Source of the DNA: Notolepis coatsorum
Lineage: Eukaryota > Chordata > Actinopteri > Aulopiformes > Paralepididae
DNA length: 64,000 nucleotides
Assembly (NCBI GenBank): GCA_963971535.1
Contig: OZ020589.1
Location: forward strand, 97,712,384-97,776,383
Direction of reading: 5' to 3'
Shown: piece after piece, positions 10,725-50,503 of the stretch
Layout: every line of letters starts with the position of its first letter
Position numbering within the stretch: position 1 is the stretch's first letter
Program-made: the position numbers and the translations under genes
Notes under the pieces: model-generated
Databases searched by the model: none
Seen by the model: the letters and a program-made list of their open reading frames with translations, nothing else
Told to the model about the DNA's origin: nothing

Positions 10725-13700
10725 TCATAGGGTTATAGGGTCATGGTCATCATCGATTGTGTCTGGGAGTCGGGGCAGTTCTATGAGCCTCGCCACGGGA
10801 CGGGTGTAAGTGCGACCCTGGACGAGCACTTCAGCTGCTCGGACCTTGCCGTCGGCACCGGTGATCACTTTGCTTACGCGGCCGGCCGGCCACATAGCTC
10901 TGGGCAGTGATTGATCAATAATCATGACGACTGTTCCTTCTGTCAAATTGTCTCTCTCCTTTACCCACTTCTGGCGGGTCTGTAGAGACGGTAGGTAGTG
11001 CAGTAGGAAACTGCTCCAAAACTTGTCGGCTAATACTTGGCTGTACCTCCACATTCGTCGGCCGTTCGCTTCTTCAGGCCGGTACATGGTCTGGGGTAAT
11101 GCAGGATCTAGCCGCCCCATCAGGAGTGTGTTGGGGTCTGCGGAGATAACAGTGCTCAATCCACAGAACACAGGCTTCTTATTCTCAGCCTCCTCCTGAC
11201 TGGCTTCCCTCGGGATAGGCCTGTGCCACTGTCCTTCCGGGAGTCTTAGGAATGCGGGGCCGTCACTGTAGACATTGCGACGGGTGAGGTCATCCAGGGG
11301 CATCCCCCGGGTGATGACGTCAGCTGGGTTCTGTTTTGTATCAACGTAGCGCCACTCTGTTTCTCCGGTTAACTCTTCGGTTAAGTCTTGAATCTCGGTG
11401 ACTCTGACTCCCACGAAGACTTTGTACTTGCATGAGTCCGATTTGATCCAGGCGAGTACTGTCGTGGAATCTGACCACAGGATTGTTCTAGACACCGGTA
11501 TGGTGAGCTCACGTTGGATGAGCGTGGCTAGGTGCGCTCCGGCTAGGGCTGCGCAGAGCTCTAGGCGTGGGATAGATTGTTGCTTGCGTGGGGCTATTCT
11601 CGAGCAGGCGAGGACAAATGCTGTGTAGATCTCTCCCCCCCTTTCTTGGGCCCGCAAGTAGGCTACTGATCCGTATGCGACCTCTGAGGCGTCACTGAAG
11701 ACGTGTAAGTCCATTTTACATGTCTCTGGCCTCACCGTGGGTGGGAAGTAGCTTCGGCGCATATTAACGCCTGGGAGTGAGTGGAGCTCCATCTCCCACT
11801 CTCTCCAGGTGGATGCAAGGTGTGCGGGAATGGGGTCGTCCCAGCCCTGGTCCTTGTCCCACAATGCTCGTACAATCATTTTTGCCCTGGTGGTGTACGG
11901 TAGAATACATCCTAGCGGGTCATATTGTCGGGCGAGTGTTGTGTACACACTCCGTCTGGTGGTCGGCGCCGCCGCCGGCCTTCCCTGCTCCGTAGTCAGG
12001 GGCTTGTGTCTGTAGTGAAGCGAATCTGTTTTGAATCGCCACACCAATCCCAGGGTCATCTCCTGGGCTTCTCCCGGGATTGTAGCCATCCAGGTCTCGC
12101 TGCTGGCTGCCTTGTCCTCGGAGGAGAGGCTGCGCAGTACTTGCGGATCGCTGCTGGCCCACTGCCTGAGATCAAAGCCGCCTTTGATCAATGAGGCGCG
12201 GAGTTTAATCAGGAGAGCCTCGGCTTCTTCCTGGGTTGAAAGGCTTTGTAGACAGTTGTCTACGTAGAAGCTGTTCTTTACGCTGTGTCGGACCTCTTCG
12301 TCCGCTGCTGGGTCCTCTGCTACATGTTTCTGTAGTGCAAATGTAGCACAGCAGGGGCTGCACGTCGTTCCGAAGGGGAGGACTTCCCATTGGTAGATGG
12401 CTGGGTGCTCATCTCCTGGCTTCTCTCTCCATAGGAACCGTAACAGGGGCTTGTCCTCCTCTACTAATCTCACCTGCAGGAACATTCCTTTAATGTCTCC
12501 GCTGATGGCCACCTTTTCCTGGCGGAAGCGGAGTAGAACGCCGAGTAGGGAGGGGCCGAGTGTGGGACCGGGCAGTAACTCTTTATTCAGAATTTGGGAT
12601 CCGATCTGGTAGCTGCAGTTAAATACTATGCGGTCTTTACCGTTGTGATGGACCTTGTGGTGAGGCACGTACCACGATTCAGTGGTCTGGTCAGCCTCTT
12701 TAATGTCCATCTTTGTGACGTGTCCCGCTGTGATGAGCTTCTCAATCTCAGCGCGGTATACACTCTCTTGGGCGGGGTTCTTGGCTAAGCGCCGCTCCGT
12801 GTTCAGCAGGTACCGTTCTGTGGCGTCTGTCTTGGCGTGGAAAGTAGGCATTCCTTCTCGCCGCAGGAGTGGCGTGGCGTATCTCAACACGCCGTTGACC
12901 GGGACTCTCTTGGTCCCTGTCTCGAGGAGGTGAATGGCGTAAATGTCATCTTTAGAGCGAATGTCTTTCTTTCCGTTCTTAAAGGGCATTTGTTCCAAGG
13001 TCCATAGCCGCTCTACGTGTTGCAGGAGTGCGGTTTCTCCCTCTGTGACTCGGGAGTGGAGACATCTAGTGGCTGTACTTCGGTTGAGAGATTTGGCGAG
13101 CGGGCCTTGGAGAGTCCATCCCAAACGGGTCTCGACTGCTGCAGGACAGCCTCGGGGTCCGGTATGAACCCGGTCTATCGGGACAATGAGGTCTGCATGG
13201 TCGGAGCCTATCAACAGGGTCGGCATAGCATTGTCTATGAGCGGGATCGGTAACTTGCGCAGATGTGCATATTTCTCCATCAGCTTGGCGACGGGGTATG
13301 TGTACCGCGACAGTCCTATTTCTTGGCTGGTGAAAGCGTCTGTAATCTGGTACCGTCGCTCAGGCTGGCCGCTTGCTGCGATAGAGAATGAGACATTCTC
13401 GCCCTTTATCGTCTTCAAATCTCGTCTTATTGTCCGAATTGTCATTTGGGTTTCGCTTCCCCGCAGCCCTAGCTGGGCCGCAGCGGAGGCGAGCAGAAGG
13501 GTCTTCTCGGACCCGTCATCGAGGACGGTGTAAGTGTCCAGGACTTTATTCTGGTAGCTTAGTGTCACACGCACTACTTTTAGGAGTACTCGGGCTCCAC
13601 TGCTGCTGGCGGGATCGATGTACATGACGCTCGCTTTGCTGCTGGATGGTGCGGGTGAAGGGCGCCGTCTGTTACTGTCGTGAAGTATGTCCAGATGGGC

Positions 13701-13955
13701 TCCATCGCACTTGGTGCACCTTTTCTTTAAGCGGCATTCGGCTACCATGTGTGAGCGCGCACAGCGAAAACAGCGCTTGTTGGACTTTATCCATTGACTT
13801 GCTTCCTCCGCGTTCAGCTTGGGGAAGGAGTCACATTGCGCTAGCCAGTGTTCTTTCTCACAGTAGGGGCACACTATCTTCCACTTCTCCGTTCTGGAGG
13901 GGGTACTGTGGCTCCTGCTGCTCGGTACTGACTCCGATTGGTGCATCACAGTCAC
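10725..13955 (-). CDS. BEL/Pao pol-like region
   Basis: A 1076-residue frame of the fossil BEL/Pao element. From the N-terminus it shows three Cys/His knuckles (CPYCEKEHWLAQC, CFRCARSHMVAEC, CTKCDGAHLDILH) and an aspartic protease (DDGSEKTLL, about residue 146). A reverse transcriptase follows (GDIKGMFLQV, VLPFGTTCSP), then an RNase H (VFSDASEVAYGSV) and a C-terminal DUF5641-like domain typical of Pao elements. These parts would mature Gag and copy the RNA in a virus-like particle. The neighbouring gag part lies just upstream on the same strand. Plus-strand frames here are shadows. Confidence 0.85.
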   Translation of the reverse strand: MTVMHQSESVPSSRSHSTPSRTEKWKIVCPYCEKEHWLAQCDSFPKLNAEEASQWIKSNKRCFRCARSHMVAECRLKKRCTKCDGAHLDILHDSNRRRPSPAPSSSKASVMYIDPASSSGARVLLKVVRVTLSYQNKVLDTYTVLDDGSEKTLLLASAAAQLGLRGSETQMTIRTIRRDLKTIKGENVSFSIAASGQPERRYQITDAFTSQEIGLSRYTYPVAKLMEKYAHLRKLPIPLIDNAMPTLLIGSDHADLIVPIDRVHTGPRGCPAAVETRLGWTLQGPLAKSLNRSTATRCLHSRVTEGETALLQHVERLWTLEQMPFKNGKKDIRSKDDIYAIHLLETGTKRVPVNGVLRYATPLLRREGMPTFHAKTDATERYLLNTERRLAKNPAQESVYRAEIEKLITAGHVTKMDIKEADQTTESWYVPHHKVHHNGKDRIVFNCSYQIGSQILNKELLPGPTLGPSLLGVLLRFRQEKVAISGDIKGMFLQVRLVEEDKPLLRFLWREKPGDEHPAIYQWEVLPFGTTCSPCCATFALQKHVAEDPAADEEVRHSVKNSFYVDNCLQSLSTQEEAEALLIKLRASLIKGGFDLRQWASSDPQVLRSLSSEDKAASSETWMATIPGEAQEMTLGLVWRFKTDSLHYRHKPLTTEQGRPAAAPTTRRSVYTTLARQYDPLGCILPYTTRAKMIVRALWDKDQGWDDPIPAHLASTWREWEMELHSLPGVNMRRSYFPPTVRPETCKMDLHVFSDASEVAYGSVAYLRAQERGGEIYTAFVLACSRIAPRKQQSIPRLELCAALAGAHLATLIQRELTIPVSRTILWSDSTTVLAWIKSDSCKYKVFVGVRVTEIQDLTEELTGETEWRYVDTKQNPADVITRGMPLDDLTRRNVYSDGPAFLRLPEGQWHRPIPREASQEEAENKKPVFCGLSTVISADPNTLLMGRLDPALPQTMYRPEEANGRRMWRYSQVLADKFWSSFLLHYLPSLQTRQKWVKERDNLTEGTVVMIIDQSLPRAMWPAGRVSKVITGADGKVRAAEVLVQGRTYTRPVARLIELPRLPDTIDDDHDPITL

Positions 13956-13976
13956 CGATCTTCTTCCATCATTTAG

Positions 13977-15767
13977 TCATCTGGTTCCTTCTCTGGAGCC
14001 AGGGGTGCTCCGTCCGAATGTATCTAGCCGTAGGCTGCTGACTTCTCTCGCCAGGAAGTCTGCTAGATCGAGGAGGTTCGGTTCGGGGCCATTCGGGTCT
14101 CGGTGATCTCTCTGCCGCCTAAAACGCTCCTGTCGAGCGGGCGGCAGCTTCTCCAAGATCCTTTCCACATTTGAGTTGGCGTAAAGTTCATGCCTCCCCT
14201 TCTCTCTCTGCGCTCCCAACATCCCTACCAGGGACTGCACTCTGATGGACAGGTCGTCCAGTGCTCGATTGTCTATTGCTGGGGGTAAGCGGTCGATGTG
14301 TCGGATCTCCTGGATCACGTAATCCCATATGCGCCCATACCTCTGGTCCAATGCTACCAGCGCTGCTGTGTATGGGGTGGTGGAAGTCGCGTAGGCGAGC
14401 GCTATATTATGTGCGCGGGGTACCTTTAAGTGCTTCAGTAGGATGGCGTATTTGTGGCGTTCATCCAATACATCCACCAACATGGTCTCCAGACACATGC
14501 GGAGTTCTGTATACTGGGCCCGGTTCTCTTGGGTGAAGTCGGGTACTATAGGCGTGCCAATGTATGACGCTGACTGTGGATACATCGGCGAGCGTTGGGG
14601 GAGAGGCCTCCTAGGCGAGTCTCCTCCCGCTCCTTGGTATGGGCTGGTACCGGCAGTGTACCATGGCCCGCTTGTCCAGGTGCTGTTCCTCGGTGCGGGT
14701 CGTGCGTCGTGCTCACCCGTGTATAGAGTTGGGGGTCTGTAGCGCAGCTCCGCGGGAGTATAGCCTGGGCTGTACCGGACCTCCTGGTCCGGTAGAGTAC
14801 TGTGCTGTCGTCGGGCGTGGTTCTCCTCCTCTTCCTCTTCGTCTTCAGTTAGGTCATCCAGTGCTTGTAGTCTCTGGTTTAGCCTCTCCACAGGATATGC
14901 TGCTCCTTCCCGGTTGCTAGGTCTCGCTTGGACCGGTGGGGGGAGGTGGTCTGTGGGGGGTATAGACCTCGTCTGTTGGTCAAGTTCAGGGTTGTTTACT
15001 CGGCTAGGGGATGCCGCCCTGGAGGTGTGTCTAGACGAGTTCCTGGAGCCTCTGGCGGAGGGAGAGGGTGTTGTCCGTCTGATCAGCTGTTCTATTAGTT
15101 GCGCTTGCTGTCTGTCGCGCTCTGCGTCCCGTAGAGCACCAGCAGCTGCTCGCTGGCTGTCTGCTCGGTCTCGGGCCACATTCTCTTCTCTCTGAATGCG
15201 TCTTATTTCTAGACGTATATGCTCTTCTTCGCTCCGCTGCTGGATCTGCAGTCGGTCGCGTTCAGCAGCGGCGTTCAGGCTGATGAGGAAGGCCTGCTGT
15301 AGGGTCCTCTCTGCCTCGCTGGGGGAAGGCGGTTGTATAGGGGAGCCTTCCCTCGGGGTACTCCTTGCGGAGCCTTGGAGCTCTATCTCCACGGTGCTCT
15401 CCCCGTCTTCTTCCGTGCCGAGTTCTGTCTCGGTAGCGTTGTATTCCTCCCGGGACTCATCGGGGACTACTTCTTCAGTACTGGCGGGGTGTGAAGTCAT
15501 GTCTGGTTCCCACTGGTCCCCACCGTGAACTTGGTCAGTTACATTAGAGCCCGTAGGGGCCTCTATGGTCGGGGTAGTCTGGGCGTTGGGGTTAGACATA
15601 CCTTTACTTTCTAGTTTTACCGCGTTTACTGTTAGTAGAAGACTAGGTTGTTGACTGACAGCGTAAGCCTCTAAGTACTGAGGGAGCCGTCGTTCGCGCT
15701 GCGGGCGTTGGTTAGGAGGATCGTTTCGTGGAGTGTTCATCATAGGCCATTTCAATATTAATAACAC
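13977..15767 (-). CDS. BEL/Pao gag-like region
   Basis: A 596-residue frame of the same fossil element. The N-terminal third is acidic and Ser/Thr/Glu-rich. A long charged helix follows (about residues 150-220, QRSEEEHIRLEIRRIQREE region), then a Pro/Ser/Arg-rich linker. The C-terminal third contains the conserved capsid-like helices found in Pao Gag proteins (LRMCLETMLVDVLDERHKYAILLKHL..., IRVQSLVGMLG...). It would form the particle shell. It starts 45 bp inside the 5' LTR boundary, after the primer site. Confidence 0.75.
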   Translation of the reverse strand: MLLILKWPMMNTPRNDPPNQRPQRERRLPQYLEAYAVSQQPSLLLTVNAVKLESKGMSNPNAQTTPTIEAPTGSNVTDQVHGGDQWEPDMTSHPASTEEVVPDESREEYNATETELGTEEDGESTVEIELQGSARSTPREGSPIQPPSPSEAERTLQQAFLISLNAAAERDRLQIQQRSEEEHIRLEIRRIQREENVARDRADSQRAAAGALRDAERDRQQAQLIEQLIRRTTPSPSARGSRNSSRHTSRAASPSRVNNPELDQQTRSIPPTDHLPPPVQARPSNREGAAYPVERLNQRLQALDDLTEDEEEEEENHARRQHSTLPDQEVRYSPGYTPAELRYRPPTLYTGEHDARPAPRNSTWTSGPWYTAGTSPYQGAGGDSPRRPLPQRSPMYPQSASYIGTPIVPDFTQENRAQYTELRMCLETMLVDVLDERHKYAILLKHLKVPRAHNIALAYATSTTPYTAALVALDQRYGRIWDYVIQEIRHIDRLPPAIDNRALDDLSIRVQSLVGMLGAQREKGRHELYANSNVERILEKLPPARQERFRRQRDHRDPNGPEPNLLDLADFLAREVSSLRLDTFGRSTPGSREGTR

Positions 15768-15792
15768 TATATTAATATTACACTGATTACCC

Positions 15793-15809
15793 TCCGGCTC
15801 GAAGGACCA
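15793..15809 (-). promoter_or_regulatory. Primer-binding site, tRNA-Tyr type
   Basis: The plus-strand bases TCCGGCTCGAAGGACCA equal the 3' end of eukaryotic tRNA-Tyr including CCA. The minus strand is therefore complementary to it over 17 bases. It lies 2 bp inside the 5' LTR edge at 15812. Confidence 0.85.
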
Positions 15810-15811
15810 AT

Positions 15812-17243
15812 TGTAACTGAGGGGTACAATTCCCTGACTGTATTACTAGATATGATACTTACTACCACTACCTTTGTACTTAATATTCGGCCACCCAGTA
15901 CTCGGCATAAATATATTATGATGAACACTGTCACGTAGATGAAACGGATCCAACACAAATGTACGAATTAGAAATAGGTCTTTATTTCTACACAGCGATG
16001 GTGTGTAGAGCAAGCACTTAATCAAATCAATCACATTTATGAATGGGAATTAGTATGCACTTTTATGGCAAGAGTATTCGTCGGTATATCAATAGAGAAT
16101 GTCCAATCTCTGAAGGCGCAGGTGGTACATATACGACCTGGAATAGTTTAAGGAATAACAGCAATGATACTTTAATGATTATAGACTGGATACACTAGGG
16201 GGGGTTAATCCGGTCGCTTGTAAGCCGACAGGAGTAGGAAGGGGGGGGGGTAGAATCCGGCTGCCTCATCCGGCCAAGGGTATCCCAGGTGAACCCACTG
16301 TAGTGCCGTTCAATGCGCCGGCGATCCTTGGACCACAGATGAAAGCAGATGGACTCTTTGTGGGCCGGCGTCCTCCGGTCCACGGAGGAGAGACGTGAAG
16401 CGACCTCGTCTTGCAGAGCGTCTCCTCACCTTGCGTCCTCTCCAGGGGGGGGGTTCCAACACACGGCAGTGTCGGGGGTCTTTATCCATGGAATAATCAA
16501 CGTATACAAAGCATAATCCGTGCCGGGGAAGGCGGGCTGTCGTCGGTAGAATAATCCGGTATACAGGTCCACTCGCTCGTCGGCTCTGGGGCTCCTCGGG
16601 TGCAATCTCACATGGGGTCGATCATCCTGGTTAAGCAGCCAGTTCTCTGCCCGAAACGATGGGGTACTGACTACGGTAGTATTCTCACCGCACGAAGCAC
16701 TATATATTAACAGACTATTATTAGCTTAATAGACTACGTCCAACTCGACGATATAGTGCCAAATATGACTATTCAAATATTAATATACACGATGTCTCAA
16801 TACCGATGGTAGGCGAACTTGGCCTTACTCCCACACGTGGCGTCGCGGGGAGGCTTTACGTCTGTGACTCTATTGGAGGGTAAGAAACTGGACTGAAAAG
16901 GAAGTCCTACTTTAGTAGCGCAGTATATATACGCACTATGAACAAATAGTCCCATTAGTGGTGCGGTAGCCAGATTCCTACGCGGAACTAGGACTTGTTC
17001 GTACATGTTGAGCGGTACGTTTGAACTGGGTCTGAGGGGTATGGCAGCCTGGCACCAAGGTCTCGACCAATAGTAGAATGGAGACTATTATGGGATGTTC
17101 AGTAGGCTAGAATGGATATTCAATGCATATTGTACAAGGAATATACAAGGGATATCAGGGAATATTAGAGAATATACTAATACAATTAAATATATATATA
17201 TAAATAAATATATATATTCGGTTTAATCTGGCCCTTCACAACA
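15812..17243 (-). repeat. BEL/Pao 5' LTR
   Basis: A 1432-bp partner of 9185-10616. It carries the promoter for the minus-strand element. AT-rich ends and a TATATATA stretch near 17190-17218 are visible. Confidence 0.92.
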
Positions 17244-22328: not shown

Positions 22329-24163
22329 TCAATCTTCTTCATCCTGCTTTTCTTCTTCATCCTCCTTGTCTGCCCATCGATATTTAGCTGTGGAGCTGAT
22401 CTTTCCCAGCAGTTTTCGGTTGCTCAACAAATAAGCATGAAAGTCTTTGCAAGACATGTCTTTCAAATTGTATTGCACAAATAGAATCCCCTTCAGTGAC
22501 TCAACAGACAGCTGGTTCCTCTCCTTGGTCCACTGGCTCTGTATCAGTGAGAAAACCCTCTCAACATTTGCATTGTGAGAGGAAAGTGCAAAGACAAACT
22601 GTGCAATCTTAAGTATTTCTGAGTAACTTTTGCTTTTGGCCTTCTCAAAATATTTGGTCCACTTCTGGTGCACCTGCAGGCCACTGAACTCCTCATCACG
22701 GTTGCACCTTTCTGTGAATCTCTTCAGATTGGTGACCTGGTCAAAACACTTGACATCATCAATTACCACCCCCTTCTCTCCTAGGAACTTGATGCAGGCC
22801 TCCACATCATTCCACTCTGGTGGCTCACTCAGATCCATCCACATTAATGTGGATCCATCCACATTAATGTGGATAACTCTTCCATGTTCCATGTTCCAGT
22901 CATCCACTTCTCCAGATACTCCAGACATGTACTGTACAGGCCTTGCACATCAGCACAGAACTGGTCATATTCCTTACCAAGTCCATCACTACGCTTTTGT
23001 GCCAGTAGTCCCTTAACTTTAAGGGACATGAAGTTGTTGCTCTTGCGTTCAAGAAGAATGGTGTGGATGCTGTTCATTATTTTCTTTACCTCCATAATGG
23101 AGTTCTTCTCCTTTTCCATGTCTTGAATGTGGGTATGGAACGCAGACATGAGTGAGTGCATGTGCCAGAGGTAGATCTCACTGAATTCGTTTTCAAAAAA
23201 CGTCTTGATCACTATGGGTGGTTTTTGCTGAGACAGAAAGAATGCCTTTAAAGCTGGAAACATCTGTATCATCCTCTCAATGCCTGGGAACAATGACAGC
23301 CACCTTGTCTTGCTGTGAGAAAGCATCCTTCTGTATTCAATGTCAACAAAAGCACAGTACTCCTTGCTCTCAGTGCGCACAGTGTAAATGTGGAAGTACT
23401 GGTCGATTTTGAACATGATATTCTCAAGGTCAATATCTATTGTGTCTGCCCCATGATGAACACAATTATTCAATATGTGTGCTGGGCAACACACACCGAT
23501 CAGAGTGTTCTTCTGCAGCAACCTCTTCAAATTTGCAAACACATTATTTCCCCCTTCATCACGTCGGATTCCTCCAACGTTTGTGTTGCAATTGTCGCCA
23601 GTAAATGCAATGCATTTTTCAGACAAATAGTTTTTTGCCAATGTTTCAATGAGATATTGTGCAATGGTTTCTGCTGTCTCATTTGGTGTGTCTTTAACCT
23701 TGATTAATTTTGTTTGCATGCCACCCCTCTTCCAGTCAAAGTACTGGATTATGATTGGGAATATTTTCACTGCTCCGTGGTTACTCCCGTCTGTAGAAAC
23801 ACCACAGTAGTGGATTTCTTTGAGTGCTTCATGTGCGACATCAATCGAGTGGGGCGCTATAACACCATTGACAATGGCTTCGGTTTTAGTGTGTGCACTA
23901 CTGAATTTTTTGGCAGTGTCAGAGTCTGGAAATGCTTTTTTTAGCAAGGCACTTGTGCAATCCATAGATCTGTAGCTGTTGTGATGTTTCACAGTGTGAA
24001 ATGCAAACGCACCCTCCTCTGCATTTACAGCATCCTCTGTTTTGCCTGGTCTAACAAAGAAGTCTGTCAACTTTGCAGACAAAATCTCACCTTGCACAGC
24101 TTTTCTATGTTTATCCGTGTCCATGTGCGCTTTAAGATCGCCTGCACCTATGCTATTTGTCAA
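22329..24163 (-). pseudogene. hAT-superfamily transposase, frameshifted
   Basis: Two overlapping minus-strand frames together give about 590 residues. The first (24163-22844) begins inside a zinc finger (DLKAHMDTDKHRKA). It carries the RNase-H-like core: CGVSTDGSNHG, 'AFTGDNCNTNVGG' and 'GVCCPAHILNNCVHHGAD'. The second (22928-22329) carries the C-terminal hAT dimerisation motif (SSHNANVERVFSLIQSQWTKER). They are put out of register by a perfect 20-bp tandem duplication at 22832-22871. The 5' end is cut off at 24163, where LINE sequence begins. It resembles the hAT transposases from which ZBED-like and SCAND3-like host proteins derive. It is dead as it stands. Confidence 0.8.
22832..22871. repeat. 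20-bp tandem duplication inside hAT gene
   Basis: Unit gatccatccacattaatgtg, present twice without mismatch. It contains the palindrome CCACATTAATGTGG. Twenty is not a multiple of three, so it shifts the transposase frame. Confidence 0.9.
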
Positions 24164-24179
24164 ACCAGGGGTACCCGGG

Positions 24180-24745
24180 ATCTTAAGAAGCTTGAAACTA
24201 AGTTTTGTCGTGGAAAACTCTGTCAGAATTTTAAATCAAATCAGGGGTGCTTTGAGCCTACCAGATGTTTCTATCCATGCACCAATCTGTTTTAATCAGA
24301 CTTACCTTGCCTGGAGTGGGAAGGGGCTAGCTTCCATTAAGGACTTATACATAGACTGTCACTTTGCATCCTTCGATCTACTAAAGAGGAAGTTTGAGTT
24401 GCCCAGCACCAACTGGCTCAGATTTCATAAAGTCATAAATTATGTTAGATCCAACGTTCAGGCTTTCGAAGGGTTCCCAATTGAACATTCTTTCTTTGAT
24501 ATTGCTGAGCCCTTGCGACAGGTGCCAGGTATCAGAGGGTACACTTTCTCATGCCTTCTGGTTTTGCCCTTCACTAACAGGATTCTGGGCCAAAATATTT
24601 GACTGGTACTCTAAGGCCTACAAGATAACTCTACAGCCGGGGGCAGAGCTCGCCATCTTCGGCTGCTCTGAGTCCTCTCTGAGCTTTCCTACAGCTGTGC
24701 AACAATCTTTGACATTGGGGACAACGGTTTTCTATTTCTAACTAA
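24180..24745 (+). pseudogene. Old Tx1/L1-like LINE ORF2 C-terminal fragment
   Basis: The translation matches the last quarter of the ORF2 at 2447-6187: 'GKGLASIKDLYIDCHFASF' against 'GKGLATIKDLYVDRHFASF', then the C-terminal finger CDRC...LSHAFWFCPSL. The first part reads in one frame to about 24520. The finger is in another frame from about 24505, with roughly 100 family residues missing between them. It is truncated at both ends, and its left edge meets the hAT gene. Confidence 0.8.
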
Positions 24746-38481: not shown

Positions 38482-38589
38482 ATTTCATTCAACATTTATC
38501 CAAACCACCCACCCTTCTGGCTCCTGCATCCAAGGCACATCAAAGCCCTGTCCTGACTCCCCCCCAGATAGCAAAAAATTAGTGAATCA

Positions 38590-38920
38590 ACGTTGAAATA
38601 GGGTTCAGCAGAAATATTGAATCTATGTTGAAGCCTGACATCTAAATTATATAGATCGTTGTCTATGACTTACACGTTGAATCAACGTTAGGTGTCAACC
38701 ATAGCTGATACTATATCAATGTTGATTCAACCATCATCTAAATGGTAATCTACATGCACATTTTAGTTGATTTTATATTGAATCAATGTTAGACATCAAT
38801 GTTTATTCAACCATAATCTAAATGGTAATCTACATGCACATTTTAGTTGATTTTATATTGAATCAATGTTAGACATCAATGTTTATTCAACCATAATCTA
38901 AATGGTACTCTACTTGTACA
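38590..38920. repeat. Subterminal repeats, 80-bp tandem unit
   Basis: The unit from ctaaatggta (38738, 38818, 38898) repeats with period 80. It contains gttgattcaac/gaatcaatgtt palindromic words that also occur near the other end (50085-50290). These are probably transposase-binding sites. Confidence 0.8.
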
Positions 38921-39469
38921 TTTGTAACTTGTACATCTACTTGTAACTTGTAAAGTTAAGGAATCAATACTGATTAATGTACATTTTACATTAAAATATT
39001 GCTGCTGATATGTATACATCATAACATTACATGTTTTTTTCCTGCTGTTAAACACACTATTGTTAAATAAATAATAATATAATTCTTATATGACCATATT
39101 TCCAAAAATGTGTGAACAAAAATGACAACATGGCTTTAATATGAAATTTTCAGAATCAGAACTTCCAGTGACTAAAACTTTTTACAAAAAACAAATAACA
39201 GACCTTATAACAGGCTTTCATTAACAATATAGCCACTGCCAGAATAGTGACACACATATTGTGTGTGGTGAGCACACGCATTCATGCACAACGAAGACAA
39301 GATTGCGTTGTCTCAATCATTTTAACTATAAATTTATGAGCTCAAAGTATGAGCTCACTACTGACTGAAATGTCCAACAAATGTCCCCCCCCCCCCCCCC
39401 CCCCCCACTGTACCGAAAATAATACCGAACCGTGTCTTCAAAACCGAGGTACGTACCGAACCCTCTCCC

Positions 39470-40050
39470 ATACCCTTAACACCAACCGCTGAAGTGCCCT
39501 TGAGCAAGGCACTAAACCCCCAACTGCTCCAGTGGAGTTGCTCAGTGGCCAACAGTGTCAGACTGTGGTTGTACTGGGGCCTAACAAAATTAATAGTTGG
39601 TTTCAGGTTGGTTGTCAGTTTGGCCATGGGTAGGTAGGGAATTTTTTTTTTTTTTTTTTTTATTTTATTCTTTCCCACGGCGACTATGAATTTCTTTATT
39701 TAATTAAAATGTTCACAACAACATGGATGCATGTACTCTGCCAGCATGTTTAATATCCATAATACTAAATGTTTGACTAAGATTTCTATGAAACTTTATT
39801 AAAAAAAAAAAAAAAAAAAGTTTTTTTTTTTTTTTTATATAATTTTTTCTAAAAACTCATAAAATATATTGGGTCGCACCTAAATCGGCAGGGTCGGTCG
39901 GCAACCTGAAACCAACTATTAATTTTGTTAGGCCTGGGCAGCTCCCAGGTGTGAATGGAACTCTGTGAATGTGAAGCAGGGCGTAGCTGAAAAAGAGCAT
40001 CTGTGCTCAGCGAACCTACCCTGGGTAAATAAAGGTTAAAATAAAAAATT
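39470..40050 (+). mobile_element. SINE-like repeat split by a MITE
   Basis: Left part 39470-39578 (cttgagcaaggcactaaacccc) and right part 39934-40050 (ctgggtaaataaaggtt, A-rich end) form one fish SINE body interrupted by the MITE at 39579-39933. A C-run at 39384-39405 lies just before it. Confidence 0.6.
39579..39933. mobile_element. 355-bp MITE, 5-bp duplication CTGGG
   Basis: Terminal inverted repeats of about 33 bp start GCCTAACAAAATTAATAG and match the right end almost perfectly. Direct repeats CTGGG lie at 39574-39578 and 39934-39938. Long T- and A-runs fill the middle. No coding. Family not assigned. Confidence 0.85.
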
Positions 40051-40071
40051 TAAAAAATAAACACTGCAAGA

Positions 40072-40406
40072 ACAGGCTGAAGCAGCATGTCATTCAAGTA
40101 GATGCCGTCCATGGAAGAACAGTGTCCAGGGTAATTCCTTGTACTGTATGAACCAGGGAAACAGTGTGCTGGGGTACCCCAAGTTTGACTCTGGTTCGCT
40201 TGACAATTAAGTTTGGGTCACTTCGGTTCCAAGAACAGGCTGAAGCAGCATGTCATTCAAGTAGATGCCGTCCATGGAAGAACAGTGTCCATCAGGGTAA
40301 TTCCTTGTACTGTATGAACCAGGGAAACAGTGTGTGCTGTGCTGTGCTGGGGTACCCTAAGTTTGACTCTGGTTCGCTTGACTTAAGTTTGGGTCACTTC
40401 GGTTCC
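40072..40406. repeat. Tandem duplication of the last-exon region
   Basis: A 160-175-bp unit beginning aacaggctgaagcagcatg occurs at about 40072 and 40233. The second copy contains the stop codon of the accessory gene (40357-40359). The first copy therefore lies in its 3' UTR. Confidence 0.85.
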
Positions 40407-43400
40407 TTGAGATGCCTCCCTCCCGGTCTGGCGCATAACGAAGCCACTTCTTGACAGTTTCGCTGTAGTCCTGGTCGGTCAGCTTGGGGTCAAACTGTCG
40501 AGCAGCAGCTGATAGACACAAAAATAAAAAAGGGAGGAAGAGAGGTGGGTGAGATGATGTACGATGATAAGAGCACCCCTCACTTCACACGAGTGCGATT
40601 TTTTTTAATCACTCAATTACTCACTCTGTAGGTCTACAGTAACAAGCTACAGTCAGCATCCAGTTAGACTGGACAGGAAAGAGAATTAAGCAATCGCCTA
40701 GCCTGACACCATCTAGGCAATACAATGTGTATCCATGCACCTCTAAAGCTCAATTACGTTGTCCATTTCTTATAGGTTGCACTTTCATCACTTTATTCCA
40801 ACATAACACTTTTTTTTAAAGTTTTTGCAACAGCATAATTATATTCTGAATCACCAGCATCACCAGCATCACCACCTCACTACCTAAACTTAACCTATGA
40901 AGTAGTTTGCAGGGGAGGAAGCTCACCAAACATGCAGGCTTGTAGTGTGGTGTGCTTGAATGGCTTCTTGCTTTCTGAACAACGCTTGTCTTTCTTTCCA
41001 GGCCAGTTGAACCCACTGGCCAGGGCGTTGGTCATAGCAGTTTTCAACATCAGTCTGATCAGGTTCTCTGAATTGGTGCCTCCTACCAAAGCCAGGCGAG
41101 AAATCTAAATCAGAGAGAAGAAAATGAAGGCCCTGCGTTAGAAACAGCATAACGTTTATTTTATGAACACAGAGCAACCAACTTGTTTATACACACACTT
41201 TATGCATGCACTGATATTCCAGCCCATGCCAGTCATTAGGTTTAACCACATTAACCCTCCTGTCCATATGTAAACGGTATATTTGAACAATTTCAAAACG
41301 TTTCATAAATAGCAGATATACAAGCTCTAACACGTTTTGAACTAGAAAGTGCTAAACACATTTTTCCCCTGAACAAGACCACACTGAAACGATCTACATT
41401 TGATAAATGAATGCAGTTCAATAAATTACCATCTTTTGACGGACTGATTGCTCCATCAGTAATGATTCTGCCTCATTGAAGTCTTGTTCACTGGCGATTG
41501 GCAGCTGGAAGGGGAGCATAGTGGTTGTGGTGGCCACCCCGTGTCCCCTGGTCCCACCAGATATGTTGCCCTCAGCCAACTCGGTCTTGATGAACTGCAC
41601 ATCTCTCGATAGATCCTTCACCACGACAAGTAATTCAGCCAGCATTGAATTATTCTTCTGGATGGTAAGGTCTTCAGAAGAAGAGTTAAAATCATTAAGT
41701 GAGAAATAAAAATAAGCAGCAAATCACACGAGGAATTACACCATGTCCAATAGACTTGCCTTTCAGAAGCTGCCCGTCATCGCCGGCCATCTGTCTACGC
41801 TGTGAAACACCAGATTGCCCTGAGCTGTGTCCTGACATCGCTGTAGAAACAAAATCATAGTTATATATTTCACTAGTTTGACTGCATTGGATCAAACTGG
41901 TGGTAGTTCCCTCTAAAATGGCATACCATTTTGTGCATGTTGTGAGAGACCAGGGGGACTGTAGTATTGCCCCGAGCTGCATCCCGACATCCCTGTAGAA
42001 ACAAATCATTATATTTAAAAATACAAAATCTGACTTGTCAGTCAAATTAACATACATGTCATAATCACTAACACCGGTTCCTGACAGGCAGCAAGCGAGC
42101 GAACTGGAGACGAAATCGCACACGACACTGTCCTGATATGACGCGGCGCGTGTCCGAGTGTGTGTTACCTGGATTCTCGACCAATAAAAAGTGTTTAGGG
42201 GCGGGACTCGGCCGCGTAATCGCTCAACTAGAGACACAGCGAGCGAATATTTGAGGGGTGAACGACATCGCTGCTCAGTTCACTGTCGCTCGCGGCAGGT
42301 CAGGATAGTCTGATTGAAACGAATACATTTTAATCACTTTTTCTCGCTCGCTCGCGTCGCTCTATGTCAGGAAGGGGTGTAAGGAGTTGTATCCCCGTCT
42401 CTCAAAACACTGTTACTGAAAGAGTACAGTATCATACCACTACTTGCACTTTGTCGATCTTGCAGCTGCTGGACATGTGAGGCCTGCTGCTGCTGGTGAT
42501 ACTGAACAATATCAAATCCTGGCATCTCGGCTGAAACACAGTAGGAAATACACAAAGTTATTAGCAAATGACGCTATTGTAATCCCCCATGTGAGAAAAT
42601 GTTTGATTTCCATTCAGCTGATTTCACGTGCACTGCCAAATACTACTTTAATAAAAATATCAAAGACAATGCGAGACAATACAGATATTTTAAACATGCC
42701 AGAATATTATGTTATGAGATTGCTTGATAACTCACCATTATGTTGAGTTAGCGATTGCCGGTAGTTGCTAGTAACCAGATATACAAAGGGGAAATGTAAA
42801 ATAAGTTGCGACTCAAACATGGTGGAAATTGTGCTCAATATAAAAGCATTATGTACAACTACACATTTGTATTGTGACATTGCTTGCAAGTTGTGAAGGC
42901 TTTGAATTTTTGTAGTGGGCTGGCATGCACATTGTAAACATGTATTCTGTTGCATGCATGATGCCAGCGACCTGCCAGCAAGCTCCTCACAAGAACACAG
43001 ATATGGGTTCACTTACTGTTATTTGGATCAGGAGTCTGCAACGAATCTAAATAGCTGTAGATCATGCCACCATCCAAAGAATCTAAAAAAGGTAAGCCAG
43101 GGTGAGAATTGAAGATGCTACAAATCATGTTTAAACAGTCATCTAGTTGGCATTTTAACATGCATAGCAACATACCATTCATTGTAGGCTCTTGGCCAAC
43201 AACTGGAGGGTTGACGGATCTTAGCGCCTTACGAGACCGGCTCGATTTTGGAGTCTGTCCTACAACATATTTTAGTTGGCATGTTATTCACAATGTATAT
43301 ATTTTGGGCCAACTATAGAATAACTGCAAGAAATGCAGAAGTCCAATCAAATTAAAATGCTCAATTTGTCGGTACATGGTCAGACTAATTTGTTTAACTG

Positions 43401-44261
43401 TTTATTATTATTATTATTATTAACTGTAGCCATTTCCAAAGTGCCTATATAAAATAAATGCATTGCATCAATACCTGGGAAACCCACATCAGGTGCTTTG
43501 GCAAAACGTTTTCTTTTGGCGTCGCCACTCGAGTCAGAGTCCGAGTGCACATACTGCTGATTTGGCCTAAAAAAAAGTATATATATACACACATATAAAT
43601 AAATGTAGTTATGATACTACGTTTATTAGTCAAGGCTAAAGTCTGAATACATAGGCCCTCAGGCCACTGTGTGTTATCCTTTTAGCACTACTTGCAACTA
43701 CAACAGCAGTGCCATTATTTACAACACCCTAGGGAGAGTTGTCCCTTTAACAAAGTGAACACTGTACCTGGATCTTCTTTTCTGGCGGAGATCTCCTTCG
43801 TCCTCAGATTCAATTTCAGAGGTTGGACACATAGTTGAGGTGTACTTGGTCTCTCGTTTTTTGGCCTCATCATGGGTCTCTGGAAAGAGCAGAGAGAAAA
43901 TGACAATTAACATATCTGCAGTCCAGTGTTTAACGAAAAAATATATGTACCTCTTATCATATGTGCATCGTCACAATTTGCGTCCTCACTTTTTGTGTAT
44001 GTGTTGCACGAAATACTCACCACACGTAGTAAGCTCACGTACATCCTTATAGGTGATCCATTTATCATCTGGTTGCAGTCCATCTCGAAGGGCTTTTGTG
44101 AGCTTTATGTGTTTAGGGGGCCATAACACAGTCTGGTCTTTAGCATTAAACCAGCTCTCTAGAACTACTGCTGTCCCACCATTTGGGAACTGTACAACTG
44201 ACCACAGCACCACCTCACCATTCATCTTCAAAGGGCTGAAATGAGAATTTACGGTACTCAT
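40357..44261 (-). CDS. 11-exon accessory protein, DUF4806-like
   Basis: Exons in transcription order: 44261-44021, 43879-43768, 43566-43475, 43259-43176, 43082-43017, 42530-42438, 41992-41927, 41840-41760, 41671-41430, 41104-40927 and 40508-40357. All introns are GT-AG except the one after exon 8, which uses GC-AG (GCAAGT). Exon phases agree throughout and sum to 1407 bp, giving 468 residues plus stop. A donor 6 bp further upstream is possible for exon 6. The N-terminus (VQFPNGGTAVVLESWF...WPP, residues about 20-50) and the C-terminus (MTNALASGFNW...VKKWLRYAPDREGG) match proteins with a DUF4806 domain, often annotated beside fish DNA transposons. The middle is Gln/Ser-rich. The role is unknown, perhaps DNA binding at the element ends. 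It is unbroken, unlike the transposase. Confidence 0.7.
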
Positions 44262-44311
44262 AATGATCTCTCCTTACAAGCCATTCCCATACCGTCCTAA
44301 ACTAATATAAT

Positions 44312-45286
44312 CCAGCCTTATTTCTGTCTGTAGGCGTCGGTGTAGGTTATCCAGTGTACATATCCACACGGTCCTCGTCTAGGGCTCCTCGGGTGAAAGC
44401 GCCAGGGTAAGCAGCCCAGCCTGGATAAGCACACTAGCTGGTACGAGGAAACGTTGGTAATGCTGGTCACTGTAGAACGGTAGCCGCACGATACACTATA
44501 CATAATAGACTAATAATAATAGAATAGGTCGAACTCGACGATACAGCTTTAAACTCTGACACTTCAGCTATCAATTTGCACGCGGTCTCAAGGCTCTATT
44601 TTGGGGCAAAACGGGCACACTTCACAGCACGTTGTATCGTGGTGAAGGCTTCAACTTATTGGGGTAACTAACTGCTGTATCCACCTGAAACGTATTTATA
44701 CGTAAGGTGAATAATCTATAGTACCAGCCTTATTTCTGTCTGTAGTCGTCGGTGTAGGTTATCCAGTGTACATATCCACACGGTCCTCGTCTAGGGCTCC
44801 TCGGGTGAAAGCGCCAGGGTAAGCAGCCCAGCCTGGATAAGCACACTAGCTGGTACGAGGAAACGTTGGTAATGCTGGTCACTGTAGAACGGTAGCCGCA
44901 CGATACACTATACATAATAGACTAATAATAATAGAATAGGTCGAACTCGACGATACAGCTTTAAACTCTGACACTTCAGCTATCAATTTGCACGCGGTCT
45001 CAAGGCTCTATTTTGGGGCAAAACGGGCACACTTCACAGCACGTTGTATCGTGGTGAAGGCTTCAACTTATTGGGGTAACTAACTGCTGTATCCACCTGA
45101 AACGTATTTATACGTAAGGTGAATAATCTATAGTACCAGCCTTATTTCTGTCTGTAGTCGTCGGTGTAGGTTATCCAGTGTACATATCCACACGGTTCTC
45201 GTCTAGGGCTCCTCGGGTGAAAGCGCCTGGGTAAGCAGCCCAGCCTGGATAAGCACACTAGCTGGTACGAGGAAACGTTGGTAATT
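44312..45286. repeat. 412-bp tandem array, BEL-LTR-like
   Basis: Units start at 44312, 44724 and 45136 (period exactly 412), the last one partial. They share collinear words with the BEL/Pao LTRs of this window (ggctcctcgggtg, taagcagcc, cgcacga..cactata, aactcgacgata). They look like a diverged BEL/Pao LTR fragment amplified in tandem. No coding. Fossil. Confidence 0.65.
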
Positions 45287-45319
45287 AGTCCGCACACATT
45301 GCATTTTTGAAGCATTTAA

Positions 45320-46493
45320 AGGAAAACTCCAACATTTTGTGAAATTAGCTTATTTGACATCTTCCCTGGAGTTATAAGAAGATACATACCTTTTTCATCT
45401 CTCTGCATGCATTGGGCTTAGGGAACGCCTGGACAGTTAGCCTAGCTTAACTTCATCACTGGAAGTGGGGCAGACATCTAACCTAGTTCACTACAGTCAG
45501 GAAATATACTCCAAATACAATCAAAATACAACTCCCAAACGTTCCCGTAAACATGTTGTGACCTGTGTATTTACCACGTCTCCCAGTCACACAAGTCACA
45601 CAAGTCTCCAAGTCACACAAGTCTCCCAGTCACACAAGTCTCCAAGTCACATGAGTCACACAAGTCTCCAAGTCACACAAGTCACACAAGTCCAAGTCTC
45701 CAAGTCACACAAGTCACACAAGTCTCCAAGTCACACAAGTCACACAAGTCACACAAGTCACACAAGTCCAAGTCACACAAGTCACACAAGTCTCCAAGTC
45801 ACACAAGTCACACAAGTCTCCAAGTCACACAAGTCTCCAAGTCACACAAGTCTCCAAGTCACACAAGTCACACAAGTCACACAAGTCACACAAGTCACAC
45901 AAGTCACACAAGTCCAAGTCACACAAGTCACACAAGTCTCCAAGTCACACAAGTCACACAAGTCTCCAAGTCACACAAGTCACACAAGTCACACAAGTCA
46001 CACAAGTCCAAGTCACACAAGTCACACAAGTCCAAGTCTCCAAGTCACACGAGTCACACAAGTCTCCAAGTCACACAAGTCACACAAGTCACACAAGTCA
46101 CACAAGTCACACAAGTCCAAGTCACACAAGTCACACAAGTCTCCAAGTCACACAAGTCACACAAGTCTCCAAGTCACAAAAGTCTCCCAGTCACACGAGA
46201 CTCATGTGACTGGGAGACTCGTGTGACTTGTGTGACTGGGAGACGGGGTAAACACACAGGTCACAACATGTTTACAGGAACGTTTGGGAGTTGTATTTGG
46301 AGTATATTTCCTGACTGTAGTGAACTAGGCTAGATGTCTGCCCCACTTCCAGTGATGAAGTTAAGCTAGGCTAACGGTCCAGGCGTTCCCTAAGCCCAAA
46401 GCATGCAGAGAGACGAAAAAGGTATGCATCTTCTTGTCCAACTCCAGGGAAGATGTTAAATAAGCTAATTTCACAAAATGTTGGAGTTTTCCT
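45320..46493. mobile_element. Foldback MITE at TTAA with minisatellite core
   Basis: Inverted arms of about 250 bp (AGGAAAACTCCAACATTTTG... at both ends) are flanked by TTAA at 45316-45319 and 46494-46497. The target fits piggyBac-like or Kolobok-like elements. The centre is an array of gtcacacaa/gtctccaa words (about 45590-46190). The start of the array (cccagtcacacaagtcac) is also present, inverted, in the right arm, so the array grew from the left arm. Confidence 0.88.
45590..46190. repeat. CACAAGTC-type minisatellite
   Basis: About 600 bp built from 8-9-bp words (cacaagtca, cacaagtctccaagt). It reads as SHTSHKS repeats in one frame, which is not a protein gene. Spacing is too short and regular for CRISPR. 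Confidence 0.9.
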
Positions 46494-46651
46494 TTAAGCG
46501 TTTCAATTGGCCAGCCAAACATGTTATCTGTGTACATGTAATATTGTACTAATTGTGTATTTATTAATGAGGTAAGTTATGCCCCGAAATCCGACGTTAG
46601 AGTCAGTGTGTCAATATAGTTACTGCACTTTAGCTTTGTAGGACAGTATGG

Positions 46652-48750
46652 TTATGCTGTTAAATGAAGTAGTGGTATTGCAATGGCACCATCTCCGTCT
46701 GGAGAGAGAAGACATTTGCGCTTGATATAGCGAAGTTTACCTATCCCTATATCTTCTTGCAAGCCACTGACCTTGTATGTACCAATGTATGATGATTCAC
46801 AGGGATACATGTAGTATGGCTGTTTGTGTCTGTACTTTCTGTAAATTATATATACCTCTTCCTCTGATTTAAGAATATTCTCTACTAATGCAAATCCATC
46901 TCCAACCTCAATACAATTGTCTCCTTTCTTTGTGGACAAAGTAAACCGATGAGTGGAGACCTTCCTGTACTGTTGTGAAGAAGTAAACTGTGGGGGGACA
47001 GGCCCATCAGTGTGAATATTACGCAAAATTGGATCATCTGTGGGACATGGGGATCCAACATGTGGAATTTCAGACAACATTTTCACTACCTGTTGTAGTG
47101 GCTGATGTGGCTTGCGTAGAAGATGCTTAATTTGTCCAAGATAGTTCTCAAAAGGGAATCCTGAGATATTATCTAGAGTGCCAAACTTCCTGTATTCCTC
47201 AGCCAAATGAATAAGCTGGTGTACATTGTACACAATTTCACCTCTTCCATACACTGTCCCAAAGTGTTCAACAAAAGAAACCATCAACTTGTGCGCAAAG
47301 GCCAACATTTCCTCAGAAATACTAGGGGACAGCAACAAGTACATTCCAACAGAAAACAACATGAAGTTGTCATACAGCTCATACAATCCTTCAAAACAAC
47401 AGGACCCCAATACAACATGAAGGATCGCAACTCAGTAGCTTTCCAGCGATCTAACTCTGACAGTTCCCTTGGTTTACGGTTAAATTCACAAGGCATGTAG
47501 GGACATAGCTTTAGAAGTTTACCTGAAATGGCTTGTACAGTTTTGGAAGGGACCCTTGTTGCCAAATTCTTCCCCTTTAACCATATATTAAGCAGTTTCC
47601 TTGTAACTCCGAGACAACAGAGATGCATGTAATCAGTTGGAAACATAGAAACCATCTTAACTAAACCTGTTAAAGGGCTCGTCCCATTGTGATGTGCCTC
47701 ATCAACCATGTCTGAGAAACTGGAGTCTGTCCTAAGTCTGACTTTTGTTTCAGGATATGTCATTTTATTTATCCATACACCCTCCTGAAAACACTTGTCA
47801 CAACCAGAATAGCCATTAAATGCCTTGGTCTGCTTAATATAAGCTCTAGCCGGGGCATCACAAATGAAAGAAGAAATCTGTACATCAAATTGCTTGTCAT
47901 TATAAATAATGCCATTAGACAGTACATTCTGAAGATCTTTGACAAACTGCTCTAGGTACTCAAAAACACTCTTTGGCTTGCTGAGACCACAAAAAATGCC
48001 AACAACAAATGGGGACTTTGTGTAGTCACATTTGAGACTTCCAAGTATGGGCCAAAACTGAAGTTTAGAACTTTTGAATAAAGGTAAACCATCTATATTA
48101 AACTGTAAATTAAGAGTTGTCAGAGTTGCCGGTAAAATCAAACATGCCAACCGTGAAAGCACCCCTTTGACTAAACCAAAATGATAGTATTCTCCCCCTT
48201 CAATCTTAGTGGTAGGCACATGTTTTTGTGTTCCTAGCAATGTTCTTCCATCTTTAGGAAGGGTGGGGTGAAACATCTTCAAAAAGGACAGCAAAGATGA
48301 TAGTGCAACCAGAGAGACTGAATAGGATGTTGCCCAATATTTTAAACTTGTCATGAGGAAATCTTCATTATGCTCATCACTGTCAAAGACATGTTCAGGT
48401 TCAATTTCGTCATCCCCAGCTATACTTTCAAAATGTGCATTTGACTCACCTGGTGAGTCAATATTTTCACTTTGATCACTGATAGTTAGTGGTCTGTTTA
48501 GTGGCAAGTCTGAAGTTGATAAATCTAGTGGCAAGTCTGATCTAGTTGTTAAATCTAGTGGCAAGTCTGTCTTTGGTAAATCGAGCAGGCACTCAGTATA
48601 GGCTGTGACAGGATCTGTGTTCTCTAAAGAGTGATGGTTTGTCCTTGAATTAGCAGCAACAATTAACTTATAATCAGTGAGGATAGCCTGCTCTGTCTCT
48701 CTCACTAATTTGTTGACTCTACGTCTTTTAGCCCGAGAATAAGATGACAT
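46652..48750 (-). pseudogene. TNP2/EnSpm-like transposase, one frame break
   Basis: Frame 1 (48750-47284) has a basic start, an Asp/Leu/Pro repeat (DLPLDL, residues about 56-85), then the TNP2-type core. The core shows LNLQFNIDGLPLFKSSKLQFWPIL (Asp220), SSFICDAPAR (Asp298), a CDKC finger (317-320) and DYMHLCCLGVTRKLLNIWL. Frame 2 (47410-46652) continues with LYELYDNFMLFSVGMYLLL, VYNVHQLIHL and GFPFENYLGQIKHLLR, the C-terminal part conserved in these transposases. The two are out of register by one base near 47390, within the codons after WGPVVLKD. Only this one break is visible in about 700 codons. It would cut and paste the element by a DDE mechanism. A sequencing error is a possible alternative. 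Confidence 0.75.
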
Positions 48751-50306
48751 AGTGATGAGGTGCTGTAGTCAATGTAATGGTACATACATTGTGCTATTTA
48801 CTTGGCTAGAACAGGTATTTGCTTCAATTGCTGCAACGTGCGGCTTCTTGAAACTGGTACGTGATTCTGGAAAAAGAAAGAAAAAAGGGGGGAGGGTCGA
48901 CATTAATGTGCTGCATTGCAATGTGCAGGGTGAAACGCTTGCATAATTCTACATTTTGATCAATATCAAGAGAGTCCATTATTATATTATTGTTATATTG
49001 TTCATTAGAAAATACCATGTATATAACCAAACGTCTAACTATATAGTCAATGTAATGGTACATAAATTGTGGTATTTACTTGGCTAGAACAATTAAGTCT
49101 CAAACAGCCTGCAAACTACCTGGCGTTCTATCGCCATGCTCTAAGACAAACTCTAACCTTAACCAACTTAGAAAGAGTGCAAGGGGAGATGAAGCATATA
49201 GCGATATAAACATAGTCATAGCATCAAATTAGTATTTAGATAAGCCACAGAAAAAAATCACGTTATAAAAATAAGCAGTTTCTAAGAAAAAACGATTTGT
49301 TATGTGAAGCGCTTTATCAACATGGGCGCCGCCATTTTGTTTGGTGACATCACCGTCGCGGTGCATTTAGCTAGCTGGCTACCTAGCCGCAGCCGGGATT
49401 CAAAGCCAACTAACCGGCTAACCCAGCTCGCTAAATACTGCATGTAGCTAGCAGAACTGTAAAATTAGTTTGAACAGCCATACAAAAAGAAACACGCGGT
49501 CCCGTTGTTGTCTGGTAGGCAACGTTGCATTTACGGATCCACGTGTTTACTAGGCCAGCTAGCGCGTGCTTCCTTGACTACTTCCTGTTCACCCAATAAG
49601 CATGCTTTTGATTGGCTGAGTCGCACAACGTCATTCAGTACCAACGCACGCAATTGGACCACGCAATTTCTAATCGTTGGCGCTATAATATTTACATCGA
49701 AATAACTTAAACAACCGTACGATTCCACTTGCACACTCTCCAGAGTTATATTAAGCACACGCTACGAATATTCATGAATATTTATCTTAGTTGACGTATA
49801 TATATATTTACCTACCAAACTGCAGCATATCACATGCACAACGCCGTCAAGATCCACTGGTGCACACTCACAATAACGTTATTTTTCACAGAACACAGTT
49901 AAGATAAAAGTAATATAGCCAAAACTTACTGTAAAGCACTCAGTAGAATCAAATCCGGGGGAACCAGATGTGCTGTTCTGAACAGCAGTTCACATTGAGA
50001 GAGTGCTCAGCTGCATGCTGGGACGTACGTCTGTTTAAATGGGGGGGGGGAATTCGGATCGGTCCAACGTAATGACGACAAACAGCATACGTTGAACAGC
50101 ATCCGTTGATTCAACATTTATTAGATATTGGCATTTCAATCATTAAAATGCAACCACAAAACAATATTGATTCAATGATATGTTTTCAACAATAGTCAAT
50201 TGCTTTAGCGGTTAATGGGTGATTCAACATCAATCGTCGACCTTAACCAAAAATCAAGCATTTTGACCATAAATCAACATTGAATTAACACCTTTTGCTA
50301 TCTGGG
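48751..50306 (-). promoter_or_regulatory. 5' non-coding region of the transposase gene
   Basis: Upstream of the transposase start. A direct repeat of about 50 bp (agtcaatgtaatggtacata..., 48765-48815 and 49044-49093) is present. GCCGCCATTTT (49328-49338) matches the YY1 consensus. Subterminal repeats lie from about 50085. The rest shows no gene. A first non-coding exon here is possible but not proven. Confidence 0.45.
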
Positions 50307-50503
50307 CCATCATCACCATAGTAACACCACACAGGGGGAAAAAAATTGCGTTTCCCAAAGCAGGGCAACAGAGGAGAGGACAAAAGAGGAGATTTTGCCC
50401 TGTGAGGTGAGATTTGCTGTCGGATCTTATTGTGGGTGTTGGAGATTAGGATGGGAGGCCATTGTGTTGCGTGCCTTACAAAAACAAAACAAGTGTGGAG
50501 AGG

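Follow-up and report, generated by a model that had tools for sequence, protein, structure and literature searches.

The window analysed here is a stretch of 64,000 nucleotides from the fish Notolepis coatsorum (contig OZ020589.1, positions 97,712,384 to 97,776,383), and its positions 38563 to 50306 are occupied by a DNA transposon bounded by identical 14-bp inverted ends. We read this element, with a probability of about 0.8 for the reading as a whole, as a two-gene cut-and-paste transposon of the CMCT clade, with a DDE transposase (gene 1), an accessory protein related to DUF4806 (gene 2) and a promoter probably shared by the two genes through alternative splicing. Two-gene DNA transposons of the CMCT clade are already known, and the element is a recently amplified further member of that kind. 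It is one copy of a family, called A here, and a sister family, B, is present in the same genome.

The identical inverted ends noticed in an earlier reading of the DNA (the sequence-only reading) were confirmed: CCCAGATAGCAAAA is present in the window as a single copy, at 38563, and so is its reverse complement, which ends at 50306. In the 3.42-Gb host genome the 14-mer is found 2,233 times (1112 forward and 1121 reverse), compared to four times (2 + 2) for a control with the same letters read backwards, so these places cannot be put down to chance. Pairing was studied for the first 100 places, which all lie on contig C1 between 35.1 and 174.6 Mb. They form 39 inward-facing neighbour pairs within 50 kb; there are no "++" or "--" neighbours and two "-+" neighbours, and the other 22 places fall outside such pairs. 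The lengths of the 39 pairs range from 4,410 to 35,819 bp, with a median of 12,999. All 40 pairs (these 39 and the window copy) carry one end of the transposase side (T-end) and one end of the gene-2 side (G-end), which shows that the two ends belong to one family and not to two different ones. Exact 33-bp T-ends number 836 for family A and 198 for family B in the host genome; the reversed controls gave none. The shortest of the 39 exact-end pairs is at least 4.4 kb long, and no small derivatives resembling miniature inverted-repeat transposable elements were seen in this sample. A text search of the literature with two 10-mers of the end gave no paper on a transposon of this kind among the matches listed, and none of the papers with either 10-mer also mentions "transposable element".

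The flanks of the 40 pairs show that insertion duplicates two base pairs. A 2-bp duplication was found in 39 of them, the sole exception being L067/68, and a 3-bp duplication in none; when the pairing was shuffled 10,000 times, a 2-bp duplication was found in 5.6 pairs on average and in 15 at most. Empty sites showing duplications of 2–3 bp had been named in the sequence-only reading as something that would support it: 2-bp duplications and empty sites were found, 3-bp duplications were not. Target sites tend towards A/T, with TA, AT, AA or TT making up 27 of 39 duplications, and a longer direct match is possible in two of the 39 pairs (6 bp in L055/56, 11 bp in L073/74). The termini of family A read CCC..GGG and are not CACTA, as had been remarked from the window. 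Maize En/Spm has CACTA termini and 3-bp duplications, compared to CCC and 2 bp here.

Joined flanks matched across the junction for six pairs. Two of the five sites inspected are clean paralogous empty sites, L029/30 (TA, 89.5%) and L045/46 (TT, 87%); the matches of L055/56, C1:46589810 and L077/78 are too gapped or diverged to count. C1:45361663 was set aside, as its joined flank matched its own tandem array.

The palindromic repeats near both ends, already noticed in the sequence-only reading, are more frequent than in shuffled sequence when TTGAWTCAA is counted with at most one mismatch. In the window copy, the 240 bp of the T-end contain four (shuffle mean 0.36, maximum 2) and the 400 bp of the G-end contain eight (mean 0.35, maximum 3), while the 9,244-bp interior has four, against a shuffle mean of 3.55. 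The G-end of family B has six (mean 0.77, maximum 4), and its interior, of more than 9 kb, has none. Palindromes are present at both ends of all 13 copies counted, with two to four at the T-end and five to eight at the G-end, shuffles having been made for two of these copies only. In all nine deletion derivatives 232 bp or more of the T-end are retained, and the terminal 819 bp of the G-end are unbroken in six of them and in pieces in three. This retention by all nine suggests that these end stretches are required.

Both genes travel with the ends and with each other, so the objection that they might occur free of such ends does not hold. The genome search with gene-2 exon 1 gave scores for the best 150 of 669 candidates. 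When these were compared with the transposase places scored (the best 118 of 865 candidates), at least 40 transposases were followed by this exon in the same orientation at a distance of up to 30 kb, and for at least 36 of these the distance was no more than 6 kb; one further neighbour lies on the opposite strand, and shifted controls gave a mean of 0.5. On C1, an exact 33-bp A-type T-end lies upstream, on the same strand and within 25 kb, of 11 of the 12 listed A transposases (shift control 0) and of 17 of the 18 listed gene-2 first exons. For family B, 116 transposase matches were reduced to 112 by removal of two second pieces and two 75% matches (one of them an A copy); 54 of the 112 fall within the stretch that the listed B ends cover, and these were counted. 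An exact T-end is upstream on the same strand for 45 of these 54 (shift control 1), at 2.36–2.63 kb in 29 cases and beyond 10 kb in three; one neighbour lies on the wrong side or strand. Nine of the 54 (e.g., C8:179640225) have no exact 33-bp T-end nearby. A possible third family, at C8:88833667, proved to be an A copy.

Thirteen copies, the window copy and 12 others, were read whole. Both genes are present in four of them: the window copy, C1:46589810 and the B copies C1:43065257 and C1:63378084. Each of the four is flanked by a 2-bp duplication, and the expectation that several full copies with both genes and a short duplication would be found is thereby borne out. The transposase of C1:63378084 is interrupted by an in-frame stop close to its start. 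In most derivatives the interior on the T-end side differs from that of the window copy, yet it is common among the derivatives, and some copies exceed the window copy in length, apparently by insertion of other repeats. Four derivatives (L014, L017, L022/L023 and L026/L027) have a common junction which places transposase codons 1–44 beside gene-2 exons 9–11; they are one lineage and may encode a chimeric protein.

As first described, the two genes lie on one strand (minus); in the window copy nested repeats lie between them and the transposase frame is broken by a frameshift, which leaves 494 codons open, compared to 707 in intact copies. The window copy is unable to produce a complete transposase, and intact copies are found elsewhere in the genome. 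Among the best 118 of 865 candidates scored with the family-A transposase, 67 have exactly 707 open codons, 84 have at least 697 and 34 have fewer; the window locus is 100% identical to the query and the other scored places 99%. This near-identity points to a recent burst of amplification, although older copies would escape such scoring of the best candidates.

The transposases of family A (L084) and family B are 65% identical. Residues D220, D298, C317-x2-C320, H376 (in DYMH), H513-x3-H517 and E537 (L084 numbering) are invariant. The DDE triad is present, with C(2)C and H(3-4)H between the second D and E, matched by eye to the CMCT pattern, for which passages of PMC12730594 give D/D/E, C(2)C, H(3-4)H and "2C and 3H". 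H376 would be the third H of the latter, and the protein is predicted to be catalytic. Transposase_21 (PF02992) did not match the window, B or intact A transposase. The genome search with PF02992 (best 150 of 253 candidates scored) gave a single place, belonging to neither family: L083 (G000:C6:153134300-153137000; 76 bits), from a different CACTA-like family, with its frame split in two. A D-x18-CxxC spacing is common to L083 and the element's transposase, as judged by eye.

Gene 2 of the window copy, spliced by hand with in-frame GT-AG or GC-AG introns, is open over 11 exons and 468 amino acids (minus strand, 44261 down to 40357); that of family B has 13 exons and 435 amino acids. The N- and C-terminal parts of the two proteins align well and the middle is variable. 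The family-B protein matches DUF4806 (PF16064) with an E value of 1.8e-8 and 35 bits (cut-off 25). The window protein is 57% identical to it over the C-terminal part, where the alignment runs through the DUF4806 region. The ratio of nonsynonymous to synonymous substitution rates (dN/dS, NG86) between A and B is 0.29 for the whole of gene 2 (412 codons), 0.17 for its C-terminus (169) and 0.18 for the transposase (675, with dS above 1). The transposase and gene 2 are both conserved, with dN/dS of about 0.2–0.3, although these values are rough since dS exceeds 1 in most comparisons. The two-protein, EnSpm/CACTA-like design of the sequence-only reading is upheld in that both genes are linked to the ends and conserved between A and B.

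DUF4806 has been termed a BEN-type DNA-binding domain (PMC11075544, by citation of Pan et al. 2023). A genome search with the DUF4806 model gave no match at E 0.001 and is uninformative because introns split the domain. Sequence searches of the PDB gave no credible relatives, and none were found in NCBIfam or, in a search for relatives, in IMG/VR.

The proposed mechanism is as follows. The gene-1 transposase would cut the element out at the CCC...GGG termini and insert it elsewhere with a stagger of 2 bp. The DUF4806-related (BEN-type) protein of gene 2 most likely binds the palindromes near both ends and aids transposition, a role that may be likened to that of TnpA of maize En/Spm. Both genes would be expressed from one promoter near the T-end, probably by alternative splicing. 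In family B the gene-2 start lies 75 bp beyond the transposase stop and a sequence like a splice acceptor is found in this gap; such sequences precede both genes in A and B (all judged by eye), which fits a single T-end promoter with alternative splicing. Alternative splicing from one transcription unit is described for En/Spm and SmTRC1 in passages of PMC1636069.

Among known systems, the element most resembles the animal TRC transposons by its described features. According to passages of the SmTRC1 paper (DeMarco et al. 2006, PMC1636069), the terminal inverted repeats (TIRs) of SmTRC1 and other animal TRC elements begin with CCC (e.g., Aedes CCCAGTCAAC and Tribolium CCCTAGTAGC), 2-bp target duplications were found in 7 of 14 SmTRC1 copies, and the transposase is followed by a second tandem open reading frame in one transcript with alternative splicing. 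CCC termini with 2-bp duplications are thus already published for animal relatives of CACTA (PMC1636069), and the element shares with them the CCC at the TIR start and the 2-bp duplication; it too has a second gene, for which the alternative splicing is a prediction. The same passages report tblastn matches of SmTRC1 in Danio. SmTRC1 differs by its 54-bp TIRs, its cloned copy of about 4.7 kb and its Transposase_21 domain, compared to TIRs of about 14 bp, a window copy of 11.7 kb and no detected Transposase_21 here. Moreover, its regions outside Transposase_21 are reported in those passages as lacking detectable conservation, whereas gene 2 of the element has many exons and is conserved. As the search for Transposase_21 gave no match, we call the element CACTA-like (CMCT) and TRC-like rather than a proven member of TRC.

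The large CMC-EnSpm element that pantera detected in Danio rerio has two full proteins and three full copies; it is likewise a two-protein DNA transposon of the CMC group from a fish, but its 13-bp TIR begins with CACT (CACTCAAAAAAAT) and not with CCC (passages of PMC11202377). In having another protein beside the transposase, short TIRs and subterminal sites in several copies, the element resembles maize En/Spm with its TnpD and TnpA (cited in PMC1636069). For the CMCT clade as a whole, passages of Kojima 2025 (PMC12730594) give duplications of 2–5 bp and, in most cases, CA..TG termini. The element has the D/D/E, C(2)C and H(3-4)H motifs and a duplication within that range, but its termini are CC..GG.

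Several results weigh against our reading. One or both genes are missing from nine of the 13 copies read whole (eight have parts only and one has neither), and the hand splice scheme broke at the fifth exon in the second B copy, C1:43065257. The T-end of family B has two palindromes (shuffle mean 0.21, maximum 3), a count that is unclear taken alone. In all A/B comparisons but that of the gene-2 N-terminus dS exceeds 1, and for this N-terminus dN/dS is 0.48 (104 codons). Searched alone against Pfam, the window gene 2 did not match DUF4806, and a sequence search of the PDB with gene 2 matched no BEN structure. In passages of the Elba study, the BEN domain is needed for DNA binding, is not shown to be sufficient and is also linked to protein contacts (PMC3510454). 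As for the transposase, Pfam gave nothing above cut-off (DUF4218 reached E 0.014 for B and 0.068 for the window C-terminal piece, both below it) and no match for the intact A protein. A profile comparison with the L083 Transposase_21 protein of the same genome was not significant, and a single-sequence fold of the window transposase had a mean predicted local distance difference test score of 39.6 and was unusable.

Three other explanations were weighed. The tandem arrays and nested repeats of the region could suggest a segmental duplication or satellite-like repeat carrying two host genes and not mobile. This is refuted by the duplications of 2 bp at 39 of 40 pairs, whose flanks differ, and by the two clean empty sites, and its probability is close to nil; in addition, the joined-flank search for the insertion site of the window copy matched only that site itself, with no second copy. 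It is distinctly improbable, though less so, that the transposase belongs to another CMCT lineage (e.g., Plavaka-, ESTA- or Lanisha-like) and not to animal TRC. Plavaka also has 2-bp duplications and the clade is deeply diverged, according to passages of PMC12730594, and SmTRC1 is described with the Transposase_21 domain (PMC1636069), for which there is no match here. However, the termini given there for PlavakaA (TGT..ACA) and PlavakaB (CATCA..TGATG) (PMC12730594) differ from CCC..GGG, which is as in animal TRC (PMC1636069).

A more serious rival, still rather unlikely, is that gene 2 was captured as a passenger, or acts as a transcriptional or anti-silencing regulator, and is dispensable for cut-and-paste. 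Passages in print assign to BEN domains roles at chromatin boundaries and in transcriptional regulation (PMC9233729, PMC3510454), and DNA binding by gene 2 is a prediction. On the other hand, gene 2 adjoins the transposase in both families, with a similar exon layout, a common GC-AG intron and dN/dS below 0.5, and palindromes stand at both ends of every copy counted. Returning to the two-protein transposon, we propose tentatively, at somewhat less than even odds, that a BEN-type DUF4806 protein is the standard second gene of the animal CACTA-like branch, where it would bind subterminal palindromes in a TnpA-like role, having been recruited independently. If so, many DUF4806 genes counted as members of gene families (in Hydra, the ambrosia beetle and zebrafish chromosome 4) would be transposon genes, a possible explanation for the DUF4806 enrichments in animal genomes. 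A table for Hydra has DUF4806 among expanded domains that include transposase domains. The passages found on DUF4806 do not link the domain to a transposon, and the identity of the accessory protein in such elements was not found in the literature searched; it may be recorded in Repbase. The anatomy of an animal CACTA-like element is now defined in two diverged, recently amplified families (ends, duplications, retained end regions and accessory gene), which, with the conserved accessory gene, makes the two-protein model testable outside plants.

Table 1. Features of the window copy and of its flanks (window positions).
Feature	Position	Strand	Basis
Target-site duplication CC, left copy, inside C-run	38561..38562	.	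flank comparison
14-bp terminal inverted repeat, gene-2-side end (G-end)	38563..38576	+	exact sequence match
G-end subterminal region, 8 palindromic TTGAWTCAA-like repeats	38563..38962	+	palindrome count
Gene 2 exon 11, end of coding sequence	40357..40508	-	hand splicing
Gene 2 exon 10, aligned to family-B DUF4806 stretch	40927..41104	-	hand splicing, A/B alignment
Gene 2 exon 9, aligned to start of family-B DUF4806 stretch	41430..41671	-	hand splicing, A/B alignment
Gene 2 exon 8, then GC-AG intron common to family B	41760..41840	-	hand splicing, A/B alignment
Gene 2 exon 7	41927..41992	-	hand splicing
Gene 2 exon 6	42438..42530	-	hand splicing
Gene 2 exon 5	43017..43082	-	hand splicing
Gene 2 exon 4	43176..43259	-	hand splicing
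Gene 2 exon 3	43475..43566	-	hand splicing
Gene 2 exon 2	43768..43879	-	hand splicing
Gene 2 exon 1, start codon; possible 3' splice AG ~44298-44297 upstream, by eye	44021..44261	-	hand splicing
412-bp tandem duplication between genes	44312..45285	.	repeat analysis
Nested fold-back repeat around 9-bp-unit tandem array	45307..46506	.	repeat analysis
Gene 1, DDE transposase, frame broken near 47386 in window copy	46655..48750 (lower bound approximate)	-	open reading frames, copy comparison
Probable 3' splice site (AG), upstream of transposase start codon	48867..48868	-	by eye
T-end subterminal region, 4 palindromic repeats	50067..50306	-	palindrome count
14-bp terminal inverted repeat, transposase-side end (T-end)	50293..50306	-	exact sequence match
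Target-site duplication CC, right copy	50307..50308	.	flank comparison

Other repeats are found in and around the element. The longest arms of the fold-back at 45307-46506 are 97% complementary and its array has the unit AGTCACACA; because L084 has a similar array beyond the element end, the 9-bp array seems to be a separate repeat. Elsewhere in the window, long retrotransposon-like open frames were recognised by eye at 10728-15842 (minus strand). Similar frames are present inside the element copies L022/L023 and L026/L027, which indicates that related repeats have inserted in both. Also by eye, positions 2435-6184 (plus strand) hold a 1250-codon open frame resembling that of a long interspersed nuclear element, and the open frames at 22332-24235 (minus strand) are hAT/ZBED-like.

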